From Sphingobacteriaceae bacterium (GTDB taxonomy: Bacteria > Bacteroidota > Bacteroidia > B-17B0 > Aurantibacillaceae), in NCBI GenBank assembly GCA_947453445.1, contig CANGGP010000004.1, positions 43,484 to 107,483 on the forward strand: a stretch of 64,000 nt of DNA. Direction: 5' to 3'. A model generated the notes under the pieces. It searched no databases, was not told where the DNA came from, and saw nothing but the letters and a program-made list of their open reading frames with translations. Positions 19,475 to 63,425 of the stretch are shown one piece after another. Position numbers and translations under genes: made by a program. Each line of letters begins with the position of its first letter. Position 1 is the stretch's first letter.

Positions 19475-20860
19475 TTATTTCAATTTAAATGTGAGCATTT
19501 GTTTTAAGGATCCTATATGGTTCTTTCCATCAGCATTCATTAATGCGATGCCAAACGGATATGATTTTCCTTCAGGAGTTGTAAACTGAACGTCATCCGC
19601 ATTTCCGGTGTTTAATTTACGCACCAAAATCACTTGATACAAAGTATGTGGTGTTACATTAATCCTGCTTCTGGTAACATTCGATACCGACCAAACATCG
19701 GCATGACTGCCGCTTGGAGGCGACAACAATACACCCGGTACACCACCCAATCCTTTGATATAAGCAATTAAATCATTTACACTGGCTGCTGGTACTTGCG
19801 ACCAATAAGTATTACCTTCATGGTTGCCGCTCGAAGCAAAACTAATTAAACTTGCACGTGAATATTTTTTCGCAAATCCAACTGCTGCAAAAGGTGTGGC
19901 TGAACCACTTGGACCATCACCTCCACCTTCATCGCCATGACAGTGACCACAGCCATAAACACTATTGTGATAAACCAAATCACCTTTATGATAATCGCCA
20001 ATAAAAGGTGTGATATTTGTGGTTGCAGTTGTATTCAATAAATAATAACCGGCATCCAACAATGTTGTTTTACCGTCGGGTCTGGTAAAAGATTGATCTA
20101 CACCGCTCCATTCGTAAGCCGGTTGCGATCGTGGGTTACCGGGTACCTTTTTATTTGAAGTAACCATGGCATTACCTGTATCTTTAACAAGGCCTTTGTT
20201 GGCATCTGTTACCATATCAGCAGCATAACCCAAAGCATCTGTCGTAGCAACATCCCACGACCAAATATCAACAGATCCTGCAGCCGGTTGCATTTTTCCT
20301 TGGTGACAAGAAGCTGCACAACCTTTGTCAACAAAGGTGCCTTCTGAACTTGAAGAATTATTTAAATCAAAGGCAATCGCCATCTTATCACTATTCCCTT
20401 GCGATGTCCATTGTCCTGTTGTATCTGATTTTAAAGGATCCGACGCGCCTAACAAAGTGGCCAAAGCATTGGTGGCATCCAAATTATTATCAACCCACTC
20501 AACATAAATATAAAGTTTAGAATCATCGTATGCCGCTTTCATGGTCAACTTAGGATCACCACCGGCATTAAAAGAACTTGTACCACCATATGTACCGGTC
20601 ATGTTTAAATAACCATTCGAATACAGGGCATTCTTGTTTAAATTTCCAACCGATACTTTTAAGTAATCGGCATTTTTCCAATAACTATCACTCAAAGTTA
20701 ATGGCGCTGTGCTAACGTAAGTAGCCTCCAGTGCAGTGGTTTGTACCGCCACTTTTGGTCCCGGAGGTTTTACAAAATATTTTTTCTCGCACGCAACAAT
20801 CAAACTTAATGTGATTGAAACGATGACGAATAGTGCTTTATGTCTTAGTATGATTTTCAT
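19475..20860 (-). CDS. Ethylbenzene-dehydrogenase-related heme lipoprotein (copy 1)
   Basis: ORF runs to 20935, but lipoprotein start MKIILRHKALFVIVSITLSLIVAC at 20860 is preferred; YVEWVDNN, CAASCH (CX3CH), CGHCH (CXXCH). Confidence 0.8.
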   Translation of the reverse strand: MKIILRHKALFVIVSITLSLIVACEKKYFVKPPGPKVAVQTTALEATYVSTAPLTLSDSYWKNADYLKVSVGNLNKNALYSNGYLNMTGTYGGTSSFNAGGDPKLTMKAAYDDSKLYIYVEWVDNNLDATNALATLLGASDPLKSDTTGQWTSQGNSDKMAIAFDLNNSSSSEGTFVDKGCAASCHQGKMQPAAGSVDIWSWDVATTDALGYAADMVTDANKGLVKDTGNAMVTSNKKVPGNPRSQPAYEWSGVDQSFTRPDGKTTLLDAGYYLLNTTATTNITPFIGDYHKGDLVYHNSVYGCGHCHGDEGGGDGPSGSATPFAAVGFAKKYSRASLISFASSGNHEGNTYWSQVPAASVNDLIAYIKGLGGVPGVLLSPPSGSHADVWSVSNVTRSRINVTPHTLYQVILVRKLNTGNADDVQFTTPEGKSYPFGIALMNADGKNHIGSLKQMLTFKLK

Positions 20861-20950
20861 AACTTTTTTATTGAATGCTTTAATCCTTATGGAAAGATAA
20901 TACTTTTTATCAGTTTCCTTTTTCAATCTCAACAAAAATTTTTCAAGAAT

Positions 20951-20979
20951 ACGGCAATCCGATTTGGATTGCCGTATTG
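20951..20979 (-). terminator. Intergenic hairpin/terminator after the YceI unit
   Basis: atacggcaatcc-gattt-ggattgccgtat perfect 12 bp stem. Confidence 0.75.
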
Positions 20980-21025
20980 ATTTTATTTACTCAATTGGAT
21001 GAATTCCAATCGAATGATATTTAAT

Positions 21026-21433
21026 TTATTGTACAGTTAAATCAGCAGTAACAGTACCTTTCTTGTCGCCAATTGTTGCATGACCACCGCCTGAGGTAAA
21101 AGTTTGACCGCTTGCATTGGTGTATTCTGCTGTTACAAAATAATCACCTCTTAACAAACCACCAAATGAATAGTTTCCGGCATCATCGGTAATGGTTGTA
21201 GCGTTGTGTGTGCTGCTTGCTGATGTAGCATTAAAAGTTATGTATACAATGGCTTTATTCACTGCCGCACCTTTTAAAGTTACTGTTCCTTTAATGGTTG
21301 CGCTTCCACCAAAATCATTGGTTTTTTTGCAAGATGTTAGTCCTAATAAAAACACGATGGCTATTAGGGCAATATTTTTGATTGTTTTCATTTGAATTTG
21401 TTTTTTAAGTTTTATTACTATTTCTATTTTCAA
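21026..21433 (-). CDS. Carboxypeptidase-regulatory-like lipoprotein
   Basis: Lipobox GLTSC; ATIKGTVTLKGAAVNKAIVYITF...DDAGNYSFGGLLRGDYFVTAEY. Confidence 0.8.
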   Translation of the reverse strand: MKIEIVIKLKKQIQMKTIKNIALIAIVFLLGLTSCKKTNDFGGSATIKGTVTLKGAAVNKAIVYITFNATSASSTHNATTITDDAGNYSFGGLLRGDYFVTAEYTNASGQTFTSGGGHATIGDKKGTVTADLTVQ

Positions 21434-21436
21434 TTA

Positions 21437-22204
21437 TTAATAAGTGTTGTTGACCATGTTACAGTCGACCCTTATTGTTACCACATCATTGATTGAAGTT
21501 GAATTTACCCCAAACACTGTATTCGCATTGATATCAAACGAACCATATAAACCTGCTCTGTCGGTTTTTTTGCCTGTAGTTGCATTGGTTAAGGTAGAAA
21601 TACCGGTATAAGACATTGGCATCGAAATTGGAACAGTTACACCACGGAAAGTAAAGTTACCTTTTACCATGTATCCGCTACCAAATCTTTCAACGCTGGT
21701 ACTTACAAACTTAGCAGTATCTGTTGTTGCTCTAGGCGCTAAAGTAAAGGCAGTTGCAGATGTTTTAGCAGTGGTATCAAATTTAATGCCCATGTAACCA
21801 GGACCGCATTTTCCGTAAGCATCTCTACCTGGTTCGCCGGTGTTAAAGGTTGATAATTGAACCCATGAACTAATTGACGAGTTGCCTGGATTTGCAGCGT
21901 CAAATTTTACTTTGATTTCAAAAATGTTAAAACGACCTGTTAATGGAGCGCCTGTTGCATAATATTTTGTTTCCCACATCACATTACTATGTGCTTTGTC
22001 TACCTTCCAAGCACCCGCTGTTGTATAACTTGCTGGTGGATAGCCCCCAATGCTGGCATTAATTACATCAGTTGATGATGTTGTGCTACTTGCTGTTAGT
22101 TGTTCATACTTGTTGTCTTTTTTACAACTGGTTACAAATACAATGGCTGTAACACCAATTCCTAAAATGGCAGTTAACAGTTTGCTTGTTGCTTTAGTTT
22201 TCAT
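21437..22204 (-). CDS. YceI family lipoprotein
   Basis: Likely start MKTKATSKLLTAILGIGVTAIVFVTSC at 22204; WKVDKAHSNVMWETKYYATGAPLTGRFNIFEIKVKFDAANP; the 22345 start in the ORF track includes promoter sequence. Confidence 0.85.
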   Translation of the reverse strand: MKTKATSKLLTAILGIGVTAIVFVTSCKKDNKYEQLTASSTTSSTDVINASIGGYPPASYTTAGAWKVDKAHSNVMWETKYYATGAPLTGRFNIFEIKVKFDAANPGNSSISSWVQLSTFNTGEPGRDAYGKCGPGYMGIKFDTTAKTSATAFTLAPRATTDTAKFVSTSVERFGSGYMVKGNFTFRGVTVPISMPMSYTGISTLTNATTGKKTDRAGLYGSFDINANTVFGVNSTSINDVVTIRVDCNMVNNTY

Positions 22205-22301
22205 AATTGTTATTGTTTGTTGGTTATTAATTGGTTTTAGTTTATCAGGTTTGTTATTCCTTTCGGTTGTAAAGGTACTCCCAAGACAAAATAAGTTGTA
22301 C

Positions 22302-22313
22302 TGACAGATGTCA
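22302..22313. promoter_or_regulatory. Candidate Crp/Fnr-family operator TGAC-AGAT-GTCA
   Basis: Perfect palindromic half-sites 98 bp upstream of the preferred YceI start. Confidence 0.5.
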
Positions 22314-22530
22314 GGATGTGAACTGACTCTAATCATCAAAAACATCTTTTTTTAACTAGCAATGAACTATTGCAGAGCGCCCGAAACTCAGTCATAGAAA
22401 GACTTCTGCGCAACTTTGAATGCACCATGCGATTAGCTTCGTTCACCAAGCCATCGAAAAATAAATCTTAAACACCAAAAAAAATATTCATTTTTTGCTT
22501 CATAAAATCAAAGTGCATCCTTCAATTAAA

Positions 22531-22562
22531 AAAAAAGCCAAATGGATTTCCATCTGGCTTTC
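22531..22562 (-). terminator. Rho-independent terminator of redox module 2
   Basis: aaagccaaatgg-attt-ccatctggcttt with A-run on + strand. Confidence 0.75.
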
Positions 22563-22608
22563 TTAAAAGTGAAATAGTCTGTTAAATCAACTTAGGCTCA
22601 ACAATCAT

Positions 22609-23514
22609 CTACCTTTTAGCAATGTTAAACCCTATTAAATACATACCCTTGGTATAATCATTATGATTGAAGAAACTGTTGGTTTGTGGCACTATGCTAT
22701 GATAATTGGTTAAGAATAATTGAAAAGTGTGAGTTGCTGTACCCATTTGCAATCCAAAACTCACATTCGGATTCGGATTATCACTCATGTGCTCAGTAAG
22801 CGGTTGATCATAATCCACAATCAACGAAAGCTTGTCGGTAATGGCATAAGCGCCCATAAACGATAGTGCAAAATGTGCATTTTTCATTTTTGGTTTAATG
22901 GTACCGTTCGAACTCACATAACCTTCTACATTGTTGTACCATGATAAACTTGGTGCCACTTGAACCGAAATAGCATTGTTGATTTTTCTGGCTATAATCA
23001 ATTGATGAAAGTATGACAATCGGTCGTAATCATTCACAAAATTGTCTTTCTTCGGACGTGTATCTACAGCCGCTAAGCCATAATAAGTAACACTTACAGG
23101 CGATCCGCCGGTTTTACCTTGCTTCAGTAATGCGTACTTTAAATTTGCATCCCATTGCATACGCTCCTTTGTAAAACCAAATCCCAATTGCAAATTTTCA
23201 ATCGGCGTATAGTTAAACCCTAATCGAATATTTGAAGAGGCATACAGGCCAAAAAAGTCTGAATAACCATTGTTCACATTGCCAAAGCGATGCTGCATGA
23301 TAAATTCAAAAACACCTTTTACGGGTACCATCACCGATTGGTTATCGATGATTAAATTTCCGTTAAATGTTTTTTTCACAAAATTAGATGCAGGTGCAGG
23401 TTTAGCTGCTGTGCTGTCTTGCGCTTTTATCGTAGAATTCAAAAGTACCAAGGCCATAAGCACACAAAGATACTTTGTTCCGTTTTTTATATATTTTACT
23501 GATTTATTTTTCAT
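22609..23514 (-). CDS. DUF5777-like beta-barrel protein (copy 2)
   Basis: FEFIMQHRFGNVNNGYSDFFGLYASSNIRLGFNYTPIENLQLGFGFTKERM aligns with copy 1. Confidence 0.8.
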   Translation of the reverse strand: MKNKSVKYIKNGTKYLCVLMALVLLNSTIKAQDSTAAKPAPASNFVKKTFNGNLIIDNQSVMVPVKGVFEFIMQHRFGNVNNGYSDFFGLYASSNIRLGFNYTPIENLQLGFGFTKERMQWDANLKYALLKQGKTGGSPVSVTYYGLAAVDTRPKKDNFVNDYDRLSYFHQLIIARKINNAISVQVAPSLSWYNNVEGYVSSNGTIKPKMKNAHFALSFMGAYAITDKLSLIVDYDQPLTEHMSDNPNPNVSFGLQMGTATHTFQLFLTNYHSIVPQTNSFFNHNDYTKGMYLIGFNIAKR

Positions 23515-23525
23515 ATGCTTTTTTT

Positions 23526-23924
23526 TTAATTGTTTGGGGCTCCTTGCTTAATCCAGGCCAATACCAAATTATTTAAGTTAGAAGGATTTGCACCGGCCGG
23601 CGGCATTGGAGTTGTTTTTTTACCGGTAATCCATAAGTAAATATTGCTGTTTTCAGGATTGCTAACATCAATATAATTGCCTCCACTCAGTACGCTATAA
23701 GCCTTCTCTGCAGATAAATCCGGACTGCGTCCTCCGGCGGCATGACAACCCGTTACACTGCAATTGGCAGTTAAAATGGGTTGTATGTCGGTTGCGAAAC
23801 TCACATTCGCTGTTACTTCTTCCACTGTACTTTTAGGCACAGTAGCCACCTTGTAACAACTTTGCAAGCCTACTATAGCGCCAACAATGGCAACCATAAT
23901 AATTGTTGTTTTTTTAATTGACAT
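23526..23924 (-). CDS. Small cytochrome c-like lipoprotein with CX4CH motif (copy 2)
   Basis: Lipobox GLQSC, CSVTGCH, TPMPPAG. Confidence 0.82.
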   Translation of the reverse strand: MSIKKTTIIMVAIVGAIVGLQSCYKVATVPKSTVEEVTANVSFATDIQPILTANCSVTGCHAAGGRSPDLSAEKAYSVLSGGNYIDVSNPENSNIYLWITGKKTTPMPPAGANPSNLNNLVLAWIKQGAPNN

Positions 23925-23979
23925 GATTTCAGTTTTTTAATCAATAATTCAATGAATTAATTCTTCAAAATAATGACCC

Positions 23980-25335
23980 TTACTTTTGAAATTTCAATGT
24001 CAAGTTTGGTTTAATACCGTGTTGATAATTAGATTTATTAAATATTGCCACACCAAATGGCTGATCTTGCAAGGATGAAAAATCAACATCTTGTTTCAAC
24101 GCATCGGTTGTTTTAAGCAAACGTTTCCATTCAATTACCCAACCACTACCGGTATAATTTACCATACAGTTAATGTCAGCACGACCTTTGGTTAAAGGCA
24201 TAGATACATAACTTGGTATGATTTTAGGACCACCGCCACCATAAATTGGATCTCCTACTCTTTGATAATCTGTACCAACATTTGGATCAATTTTGCTGCC
24301 ATCACTGAGGGTTAATACACCCAAGGTATCTAAGCCTTTAATTTGTTTCGCCACACCTGCATCAATGTCTGTTTGCAAGATGTAATAATAATCGGTTTTA
24401 CCGGGAATTAAATATTTTGGTGCAGTAGTAGTTAAAGTTTTACCCATAACAGTTAGTGTAAAAGTTTGTGAATTGTTGCTGGTTCCACCAACATTGGCCG
24501 AATACACAGGACCATAAGGGTAACTAGTAGAAGAACCGGTTACTACTTGATCATCTTGGTGACGACCATTACCGCTACCACCTACTAGATTCGTAATCGA
24601 TGGTCCACCGGCCCAATCTTGATACTCATCCGAAAACTGCCCGTTAATTGGATCTCTGCCAATTTTTAACCACCACATGTCAATTTTTTCGTTTGCACCA
24701 TTGGTATAGTGATTACCGCTAGCATTCGACTTCACAGTAGCAGGGGTTGTTGTAGGATCGAGATATGGTGTAAATGTATGACAGCTTGCGTAACATGTTT
24801 GCGCTGCAAATTTAGAAGTTGAATTATCGATGTTCCATAAAAACGCCAATTTATCTTCACCCCATCCATCTCTGGTGATATTGCCATTCGAATCGAATGT
24901 TTTTGCTGAAGGTTCTTGCGCCCATCTTTTTGTTGTTGGATTAAAATACCAAGGTGAAACCTGCACACTTTTATCATTATCGGCGTACTGTGCCAAAAAA
25001 TAAACATAGGTGCCATCATACATCGATTTTAACGACACAGGGTATTGTGTGCCTACATAACCGTTAAACAAACCATTGCCCGGATCAGGCACTTGTGTTG
25101 TTGTGTTTAATTGTGTGGCATTGTCCCATACTGCATCCACAATTCCGTCAATGGTAGGCGCATTATCCGTTTTAGCACATAATAAGTCTGCCGGATTAGT
25201 TACCACGGCCGGTAAATCGGCTGTTTTTACATCTAAAGTTTGATTGGTTTTGGTACAACTCACCATCAAGGCGATTCCTGTAAATCCGATGCCAAGTACT
25301 GTGGCCATCAGTTTTTTTGCTCCTTTTGATTTCAT
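23980..25335 (-). CDS. Ethylbenzene-dehydrogenase-related heme lipoprotein (copy 2)
   Basis: Lipobox LMVSC, APTIDGIVDAVWDNA, YFLAQYADNDKS, CYASCH (CX3CH), WVIEWKRLLKT. Confidence 0.82.
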   Translation of the reverse strand: MKSKGAKKLMATVLGIGFTGIALMVSCTKTNQTLDVKTADLPAVVTNPADLLCAKTDNAPTIDGIVDAVWDNATQLNTTTQVPDPGNGLFNGYVGTQYPVSLKSMYDGTYVYFLAQYADNDKSVQVSPWYFNPTTKRWAQEPSAKTFDSNGNITRDGWGEDKLAFLWNIDNSTSKFAAQTCYASCHTFTPYLDPTTTPATVKSNASGNHYTNGANEKIDMWWLKIGRDPINGQFSDEYQDWAGGPSITNLVGGSGNGRHQDDQVVTGSSTSYPYGPVYSANVGGTSNNSQTFTLTVMGKTLTTTAPKYLIPGKTDYYYILQTDIDAGVAKQIKGLDTLGVLTLSDGSKIDPNVGTDYQRVGDPIYGGGGPKIIPSYVSMPLTKGRADINCMVNYTGSGWVIEWKRLLKTTDALKQDVDFSSLQDQPFGVAIFNKSNYQHGIKPNLTLKFQK

Positions 25336-26018: not shown

Positions 26019-26091
26019 GCGGAAGTAGCTCAATTGGTAGAGCTCCAGCCTTCCAAGCTGGAGGTTGCGGGTTCGAGACCCGTCTTCCGCT
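26019..26091 (+). tRNA. tRNA-Gly(TCC)
   Basis: GCGGAAG/CTTCCGC acceptor; anticodon loop CTTCCAA. Confidence 0.95.
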
Positions 26092-26120
26092 CAAAAGATT
26101 GAGAGACGAATTGAGATTTA

Positions 26121-26136
26121 TCCCGATGCATCGGGA
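26121..26136. repeat. Perfect palindrome TCCCGATGCATCGGGA inside a tRNA-Gly tail duplication
   Basis: 16 bp palindrome between two copies of TCTTCCGCTC (26083-26092 and 26144-26153). Confidence 0.8.
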
Positions 26137-26302
26137 GGAATTTTCTTCCGCTCTACAAAAAATGAAATTACGTTGACATGTTTCGACATATCAACAAAAA
26201 GCACTAAAGCATTTTAGTGTTAGGTTAAGTGAAGTTGAAAAATACGCCTACAGAGGCAACAAAAACAAAATACGGCTTGATGATTCGGCTTAAAAGTTTT
26301 TG

Positions 26303-62973: not shown

Positions 62974-63255
62974 TTTCTTTAAAATTGGCATCTTAGTAAT
63001 CTCTTAGCAATTGCGAGAGCATTGCTCGAAGCAATCTGCTTAGAGATTACTAATCCCGAGCTTGCCTCGGGAGACATACTTTACAAAATGATATAAAACA
63101 AAAAACCCCGTGTATTTCTACACAGGGTTCTTTTCTTTAAAATTGGCATCTTAGATAGCGCTTAGTTTTTGCAAGAGCTTGTCTCGCCGCAAAGACTTAG
63201 CGCTATCTAATCCCGAGCTTGCCTCGGGAGACATACTTTACAAAATGATATAAAA
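62974..63255 (-). repeat. Two tandem units downstream of 5S, each with a copy of the 5S 3' tail, a 60 bp palindrome and a TCCCGAG palindrome
   Basis: tttaaaattggcatc + TTAG[..]CTAA palindrome + tcccgagcttgcctcggga + gacatactttacaaaatgatataaaac repeated twice, separated by the same terminator. Confidence 0.85.
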
Positions 63256-63312
63256 CAAAAAACCCCGTGTATTTCTACACAGGGTTCTTTCCCGATAATT
63301 ATCGGGATTTAA

Positions 63313-63425
<113 letters not shown>

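Follow-up and report, generated by a model that had tools for sequence, protein, structure and literature searches.

A tRNA-Gly tail copy beside a palindrome as a likely remnant of a tRNA-anchored GIY-YIG element in Bacteroidota

Why should the 3' end of an intact tRNA gene recur a short distance downstream, next to a perfect palindrome? The window, by which we mean the whole stretch of 64,000 nucleotides analyzed, contains an intact tRNA-Gly gene (anticodon tcc) at 26019–26092 on the + strand, which is recognized by ARAGORN and by Rfam (RF00005, 72.5 bits). A repeat search of the window places its 3' tail, the 10-nt sequence TCTTCCGCTC, at just two sites, 26083–26092 within the gene and 26144–26153, both on the + strand; the latter, by the repeat search and by comparison with relatives, is a broken copy of the tail. 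The 51-nt spacer between them (26093–26143, + strand) consists of a degraded T-loop fragment, a hairpin and flanks, as judged by eye against three loci (L056, L057 and L061) that keep a longer version of it. The palindrome TCCCGATGCATCGGGA, located at 26121–26136 by a palindrome search, occupies what the relatives indicate to be the T-loop place of the broken tRNA-Gly copy. The duplicated tail and the intervening palindrome described in an earlier sequence-only reading are therefore confirmed. Taken alone, the 10-nt repeat is weak evidence, with a chance expectation of 0.05 in the window. A run of genes for exported proteins, several with CxxCH haem-binding motifs, adjoins the tRNA cluster (19475–25335, − strand).

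The order tRNA-Thr, tRNA-Tyr, tRNA-Gly, tRNA-Thr, tuf defines a synteny set of 28 genomes of the family, including the window genome. A unit follows tRNA-Gly in four of these, the window genome and three relatives, and 24 lack it. In the three relatives a T-loop fragment, GAGAAGTTTAT or similar, leads into a palindrome and then into an exact copy of 13–17 nt of the tRNA tail. The palindromes differ among them (CCCGACGCATGTCGGG, CCTGAGCTTGCCGAAGG and ACTGAGCGAAGTCGAAGT) and each stands at the position of the former T-loop. In two relatives a broken copy of the 5' part of tRNA-Gly also lies upstream, its D-loop containing a palindrome. Because longer tail copies occupy the same place in three relatives and the other 24 genomes lack the unit, the tRNA-Gly unit exceeds what chance would give. 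At locus L052, the interval between tRNA-Gly and tRNA-Thr contains tandem copies of the tRNA-Thr head, in which nucleotides 9 and 10 are separated by hairpins such as CCTGCCTGTCGAAAGACAGG.

The same reading had taken a frame through the tail copy to be the degraded end of a coding sequence, reminiscent of GIY-YIG nuclease ORFs near RNA genes. At the tRNA-Gly site this does not hold: 26093–26153 contains no GIY-YIG-like remnant, the 51-nt gap is too small for a gene, and the three relatives that bear the unit do not keep the frame. The xPxASxG look of the proposed peptide (IYPDASGG) arises because the peptide is the palindrome in translation. Since none of the 27 syntenic relatives has an intact GIY-YIG ORF between tRNA-Gly and tRNA-Thr, any link of this site to a nuclease is by analogy. 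The suggested link is borne out elsewhere in the same genome, where all four ORFs of one GIY-YIG subfamily, here called type B, lie at tRNA genes with broken tRNA copies. Three of them are complete. Each begins about 45 nt downstream of a tRNA gene (Arg-tct, Arg-ccg or Ser-gga) and has behind it an incomplete copy of that tRNA, interrupted by hairpins. The fourth (L020) is truncated by a contig end that has an 18-nt overlap with the end of the contig downstream of tRNA-fMet (L116), a gene with hairpin-marked head copies upstream. In all, the pattern recurs at five tRNA genes of the genome other than tRNA-Gly; at tRNA-Met (L104) the marked copies are found without an ORF.

The intact layout, in which a tRNA gene, a terminator and a GIY-YIG ORF of ∼80–100 amino acids are joined by a broken copy of that tRNA, interrupted by hairpins at its D-loop, its anticodon arm or its T-loop, extends well beyond this genome. 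Profile A2 was used for the collection scan, profile A1 being too diverse. The protein scan of public genomes yielded 33 loci in Bacteroidota, Calditrichota, Neomarinimicrobiota, Magasanikbacteria and Moraniibacteriota, most of which adjoin a tRNA gene. Together with the family-level loci these form a set of 140 distinct type-B ORFs, of which 100 have a tRNA gene within 500 bp, on the same strand in 100 of 100 cases, where ∼1.2% would be expected per ORF; the search profile was seeded with tRNA-linked members, and the set includes tandem copies and near relatives, which are not independent samples. The linked tRNAs represent 15 nominal isotypes. The ORF follows the tRNA in 77 cases (median gap 48 nt) and precedes it in 23. 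For type-B ORFs without a nearby tRNA, an Rfam scan for other RNA genes gave one weak tRNA match and nothing else. Another small GIY-YIG subfamily (type A, KKWSRxKKEAL; loci among L070–L094), which is common in the family, has no tRNA gene within 500 bp at any of ∼20 loci, so the tRNA linkage is not general to GIY-YIG genes. Tandem ORFs were seen as well: four nearly identical copies downstream of a tRNA-Met (L241; G042:C5:146100–150600), and three in a Mesonia sp. (L136), with hairpin-marked tRNA-Asp tails and terminator copies between them. A further Rfam match, to the Rhizobiales sRNA family Atu_At1, lies in a Bacteroidota genome (L018, 65–171, − strand) and may reflect a shared repeat.

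A broken copy of the linked tRNA, with at least 12 nt exact and within 700 bp, accompanies 84 of the 100 tRNA-linked ORFs, compared with one on the reverse strand and three for another isotype. A hairpin abuts the break in 56 of these 84 copies, a situation expected by chance at 2.7% of positions. The breaks cluster in the D-loop, at nucleotides 27/28, 36–38 and 44–51, and in the T-loop, and in many unrelated genomes palindromes exactly replace the anticodon arm. Head copies end in or near the T-loop at nine loci (L104, L116, L137, L140, L148, L149, L151, L157 and L197). The notion of a coding end that overlaps an RNA tail, which fails at tRNA-Gly, finds its counterpart in other genomes, where intact GIY-YIG ORFs sometimes read through the tRNA copy and the palindrome. 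The ORF stop codon falls within a tRNA copy in 27 of 99 cases (control, 1) and is often the TAG of TAGAGC; examples of such ends are ...GLEHPDFQSGGS in L145 and L148 and ...SSSAGSEHPDP in L197.

Type-B proteins belong to the GIY-YIG superfamily PF01541, with Pfam E values of 6e-13 to 1.5e-20. Y5, Y16, G18, R26, H30 and E63, which comprise the GIY...YIG motif, the conserved Arg and His and the catalytic Glu, are invariant in eight seeds, and dN/dS is 0.05–0.2 in most diverged pairs, a mark of purifying selection. With catalytic residues invariant and dN/dS low, these are working genes. The catalytic domain covers the ORFs, and a separate DNA-binding region after it is absent. Matches are to the GIY-YIG DNA nucleases UPF0213 and SLX1 and to phage homing endonuclease families. 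In phages themselves the GIY-YIG matches were all distant, at <60% identity, and no type-B relatives were found in viral contigs. On a tree of 126 type-B ORFs the isotype labels require 27 changes, against a mean of 59.7 for shuffled labels and with none of 200 shuffles as low. Lineages thus tend to stay with one tRNA isotype across hosts, as exemplified by a tRNA-Ala lineage found in Flavobacteriaceae and in the window's own family.

Occupied and empty versions of one site can be compared directly. The orthologous tRNA-Val site, empty in the window genome, is occupied in four relatives (L128/L161, L197, L242 and L244), with conserved neighbor genes. At L244 the marked head copy comes after the native leader, which indicates that the cassette, a second leader, an intact tRNA, a terminator and the ORF, sits within the old tRNA, whose two halves flank it. 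L197, from a closed chromosome of the same genus, has ten 89-bp repeats of tRNA-Val nucleotides 1–53, in which TCCCGACTAACGTCGGGA takes the place of the anticodon arm; every repeat stops in the T-loop and is followed by the leader. The array leads into an intact tRNA-Val with a terminator behind it. Two GIY-YIG ORFs come next, each with a marked tail after it and the first tail followed by another terminator, and then a degraded third ORF; a tRNA-Cys called by ARAGORN inside this locus is probably false. A tRNA-Val locus of the same design is present in Caldithrix (L148).

The sequence-only reading had also paired the tRNA-Gly site with the 5S locus as sharing one architecture of RNA gene, spacer, palindrome and tail copy, and the 5S locus is as it described. 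The 5S rRNA gene (63313–63425, − strand; Rfam RF00001, 82.9 bits) has a palindrome directly 3' of it (63290–63307, by palindrome search). Two copies of its tail follow on the − strand, each with the sequence GATGCCAATTTTAAAG, each preceded by AGTATGTC and two hairpins and each followed by a terminator, which behind copy 1 is a duplicate of the original one. Copy 1 (63135–63150) is interrupted by hairpins at 63151–63229, namely TCCCGAGGCAAGCTCGGGA at 63211–63229 and then a long one, and copy 2 (62977–62992) by hairpins at 62993–63072; the short hairpin is identical in both, and the stem of the long one is different in each. The 5S site is probably likewise a remnant or derivative of the element proposed below. 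Across the genome, TCCCGA-N-TCGGGA palindromes number 31, compared with 1 for the reversed control pattern, and 4 are in the window where 0 are expected. Nine of the 31 lie at RNA genes or tails (one at tRNA-Gly, three at 5S, three on contig C42, which starts with the same array as the 5S locus, and one each at tRNA-Met on C23 and tRNA-Arg on C50), and the others are not at RNA genes by the tests run. Three genomes (G001, G046 and G047) contain 76 to 128 such palindromes each, against 0 to 5 in many relatives, and G001 has no type-B match.

We consider it somewhat probable, by analogy with the loci above, that the tRNA-Gly site is an ORF-less remnant or non-autonomous derivative of a tRNA-anchored selfish element that carries a small single-domain GIY-YIG nuclease gene and spreads by a SegB-like cut-and-copy process. 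SegB of phages T4 and T6, the nearest studied system, is a GIY-YIG homing endonuclease of the free-standing type from the tRNA region of these phages (PMC13096335, citing Brok-Volchanskaya 2008). It cleaves tRNA genes internally at RAWTSGAAC, the T-loop complement, and through recombination causes tRNA plus segB to be amplified in tandem (PMC13096335). The proposal draws on the fact that SegB cuts at the T-loop complement and that head copies here end in or near the T-loop, as do many of the broken copies. The two also share a nuclease gene beside tRNA genes of many isotypes, on the same strand and within 500 bp for 100 of the 140 type-B ORFs, and tandem copies of tRNA and nuclease gene. The element here differs in its residence in bacterial chromosomes, its domain of ∼80–100 amino acids alone, its hairpin-marked broken tRNA copies and its isotype-faithful lineages, and in that its cleavage activity is putative.

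In such a process the type-B nuclease would cut the DNA of tRNA genes, its probable target being a conserved loop region, for example the T-loop, and recombinational repair would copy the cassette of leader, intact tRNA, terminator and ORF into the cut gene, where it could be amplified in tandem as with SegB. One intact tRNA would always be retained, which would render the insertion harmless, and the old tRNA would be left split in two. Its halves would be marked by hairpins in the D-loop, the anticodon arm or the T-loop, which would inactivate the halves and disrupt homology that could delete the element; the hairpins may be cut-site scars, a means of inactivating orphan halves, or a shield against recombinational deletion. 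Several points speak against the model. None of the 27 syntenic relatives has a nuclease ORF at tRNA-Gly. The intact tRNA inside the element should itself remain open to cutting, and how the donor escapes is not accounted for by the model; in addition, type-B proteins lack the DNA-binding region normal for homing enzymes. It is also conceivable, though we regard it as unlikely, that this is a wholly new kind of selfish element, in which the nuclease holds the sole intact essential tRNA hostage in its cassette and disables every other copy by a hairpin that replaces the anticodon arm or a loop, so that loss of the cassette would tend to kill the cell.

Other known systems resemble the element in part. 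Integrative elements with a tRNA 3'-end copy likewise leave the target tRNA intact with a partial copy at the other end, whereas here the broken copy is overwritten by hairpins and the cassette holds a whole intact tRNA rather than an attachment-site tail. No integrase is present in the unit, and in the loci read the sole ORF between the tRNA and the tail copy is the GIY-YIG gene. Group I introns in tRNA genes with GIY-YIG endonucleases also tie a nuclease gene to tRNA-gene loops, but the tRNA here is duplicated, not spliced, and Rfam matched no group I intron core in the scanned loci.

The most substantial rival treats the palindromes as REP-like mobile repeats in their own right, which a Y1 (RAYT) transposase, or nothing specific, would move. 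They would insert anywhere and persist only in tRNA fragments that the cell can spare, and would have no connection with the GIY-YIG gene. Like REPINs, the palindromes are short and dispersed, most of the 31 TCCCGA copies lying away from RNA genes; the genome has a strong Y1_Tnp gene, palindrome and Y1 counts correlate weakly (11 genomes, rho 0.57, p 0.07), and several unrelated palindrome families occupy the same sites. Unlike REPINs, the palindromes here sit in loops of RNA-gene copies. Hairpins abut breaks in tRNA copies far above background and replace anticodon arms exactly in many unrelated genomes, the flanks of four strong Y1 loci lack the TCCCGA palindrome, and palindrome counts also follow type-B counts (rho 0.70, n = 65), a correlation confounded by the elements' own hairpins and by ancestry. 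We regard the REP-like account as possible but doubtful.

An RNA-level system, in which transcribed hairpin-marked tRNA copies serve as decoy or antitoxin RNA for the nuclease in the manner of type III toxin–antitoxin pairs, seems improbable. The corresponding layout of tandem RNA repeats, a terminator and a nuclease is seen in L197, L148 and L242, with an intact tRNA before the terminator in the first two, and the repeat unit gives a better fold than shuffled sequences do (z = −3.4); the layout is nevertheless absent from many loci, which have no upstream array, a single downstream copy or the reverse order. The protein matches to DNA nucleases and homing endonucleases, and the single weak match given by PADLOC, also count against it. 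Finally, a chance 10-nt match beside an ordinary palindromic repeat could be entertained for a copy so short and an ORF so plainly absent, yet the three relatives contradict it, since their copies at this position are longer and come with T-loop fragments and with palindromes that differ, and the pattern recurs at 5S and at five other tRNA genes of the genome, making coincidence highly implausible.

In the open literature searched we found SegB and no published description of the bacterial element proposed here, which looks like a widespread and apparently undescribed kind of tiny selfish element. If the proposal is true, a class of selfish elements of ∼350 bp per unit would be common at tRNA genes in Bacteroidota and would also occur in Calditrichota, Neomarinimicrobiota and two candidate phyla, as a chromosomal counterpart of SegB. 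It would account for the hairpin arrays and the broken tRNA copies that adjoin tRNA genes, and would make the intron-free life of a homing nuclease on an essential RNA gene testable. It would also supply a concrete setting in which short palindromes may get written into the loops of RNA genes.
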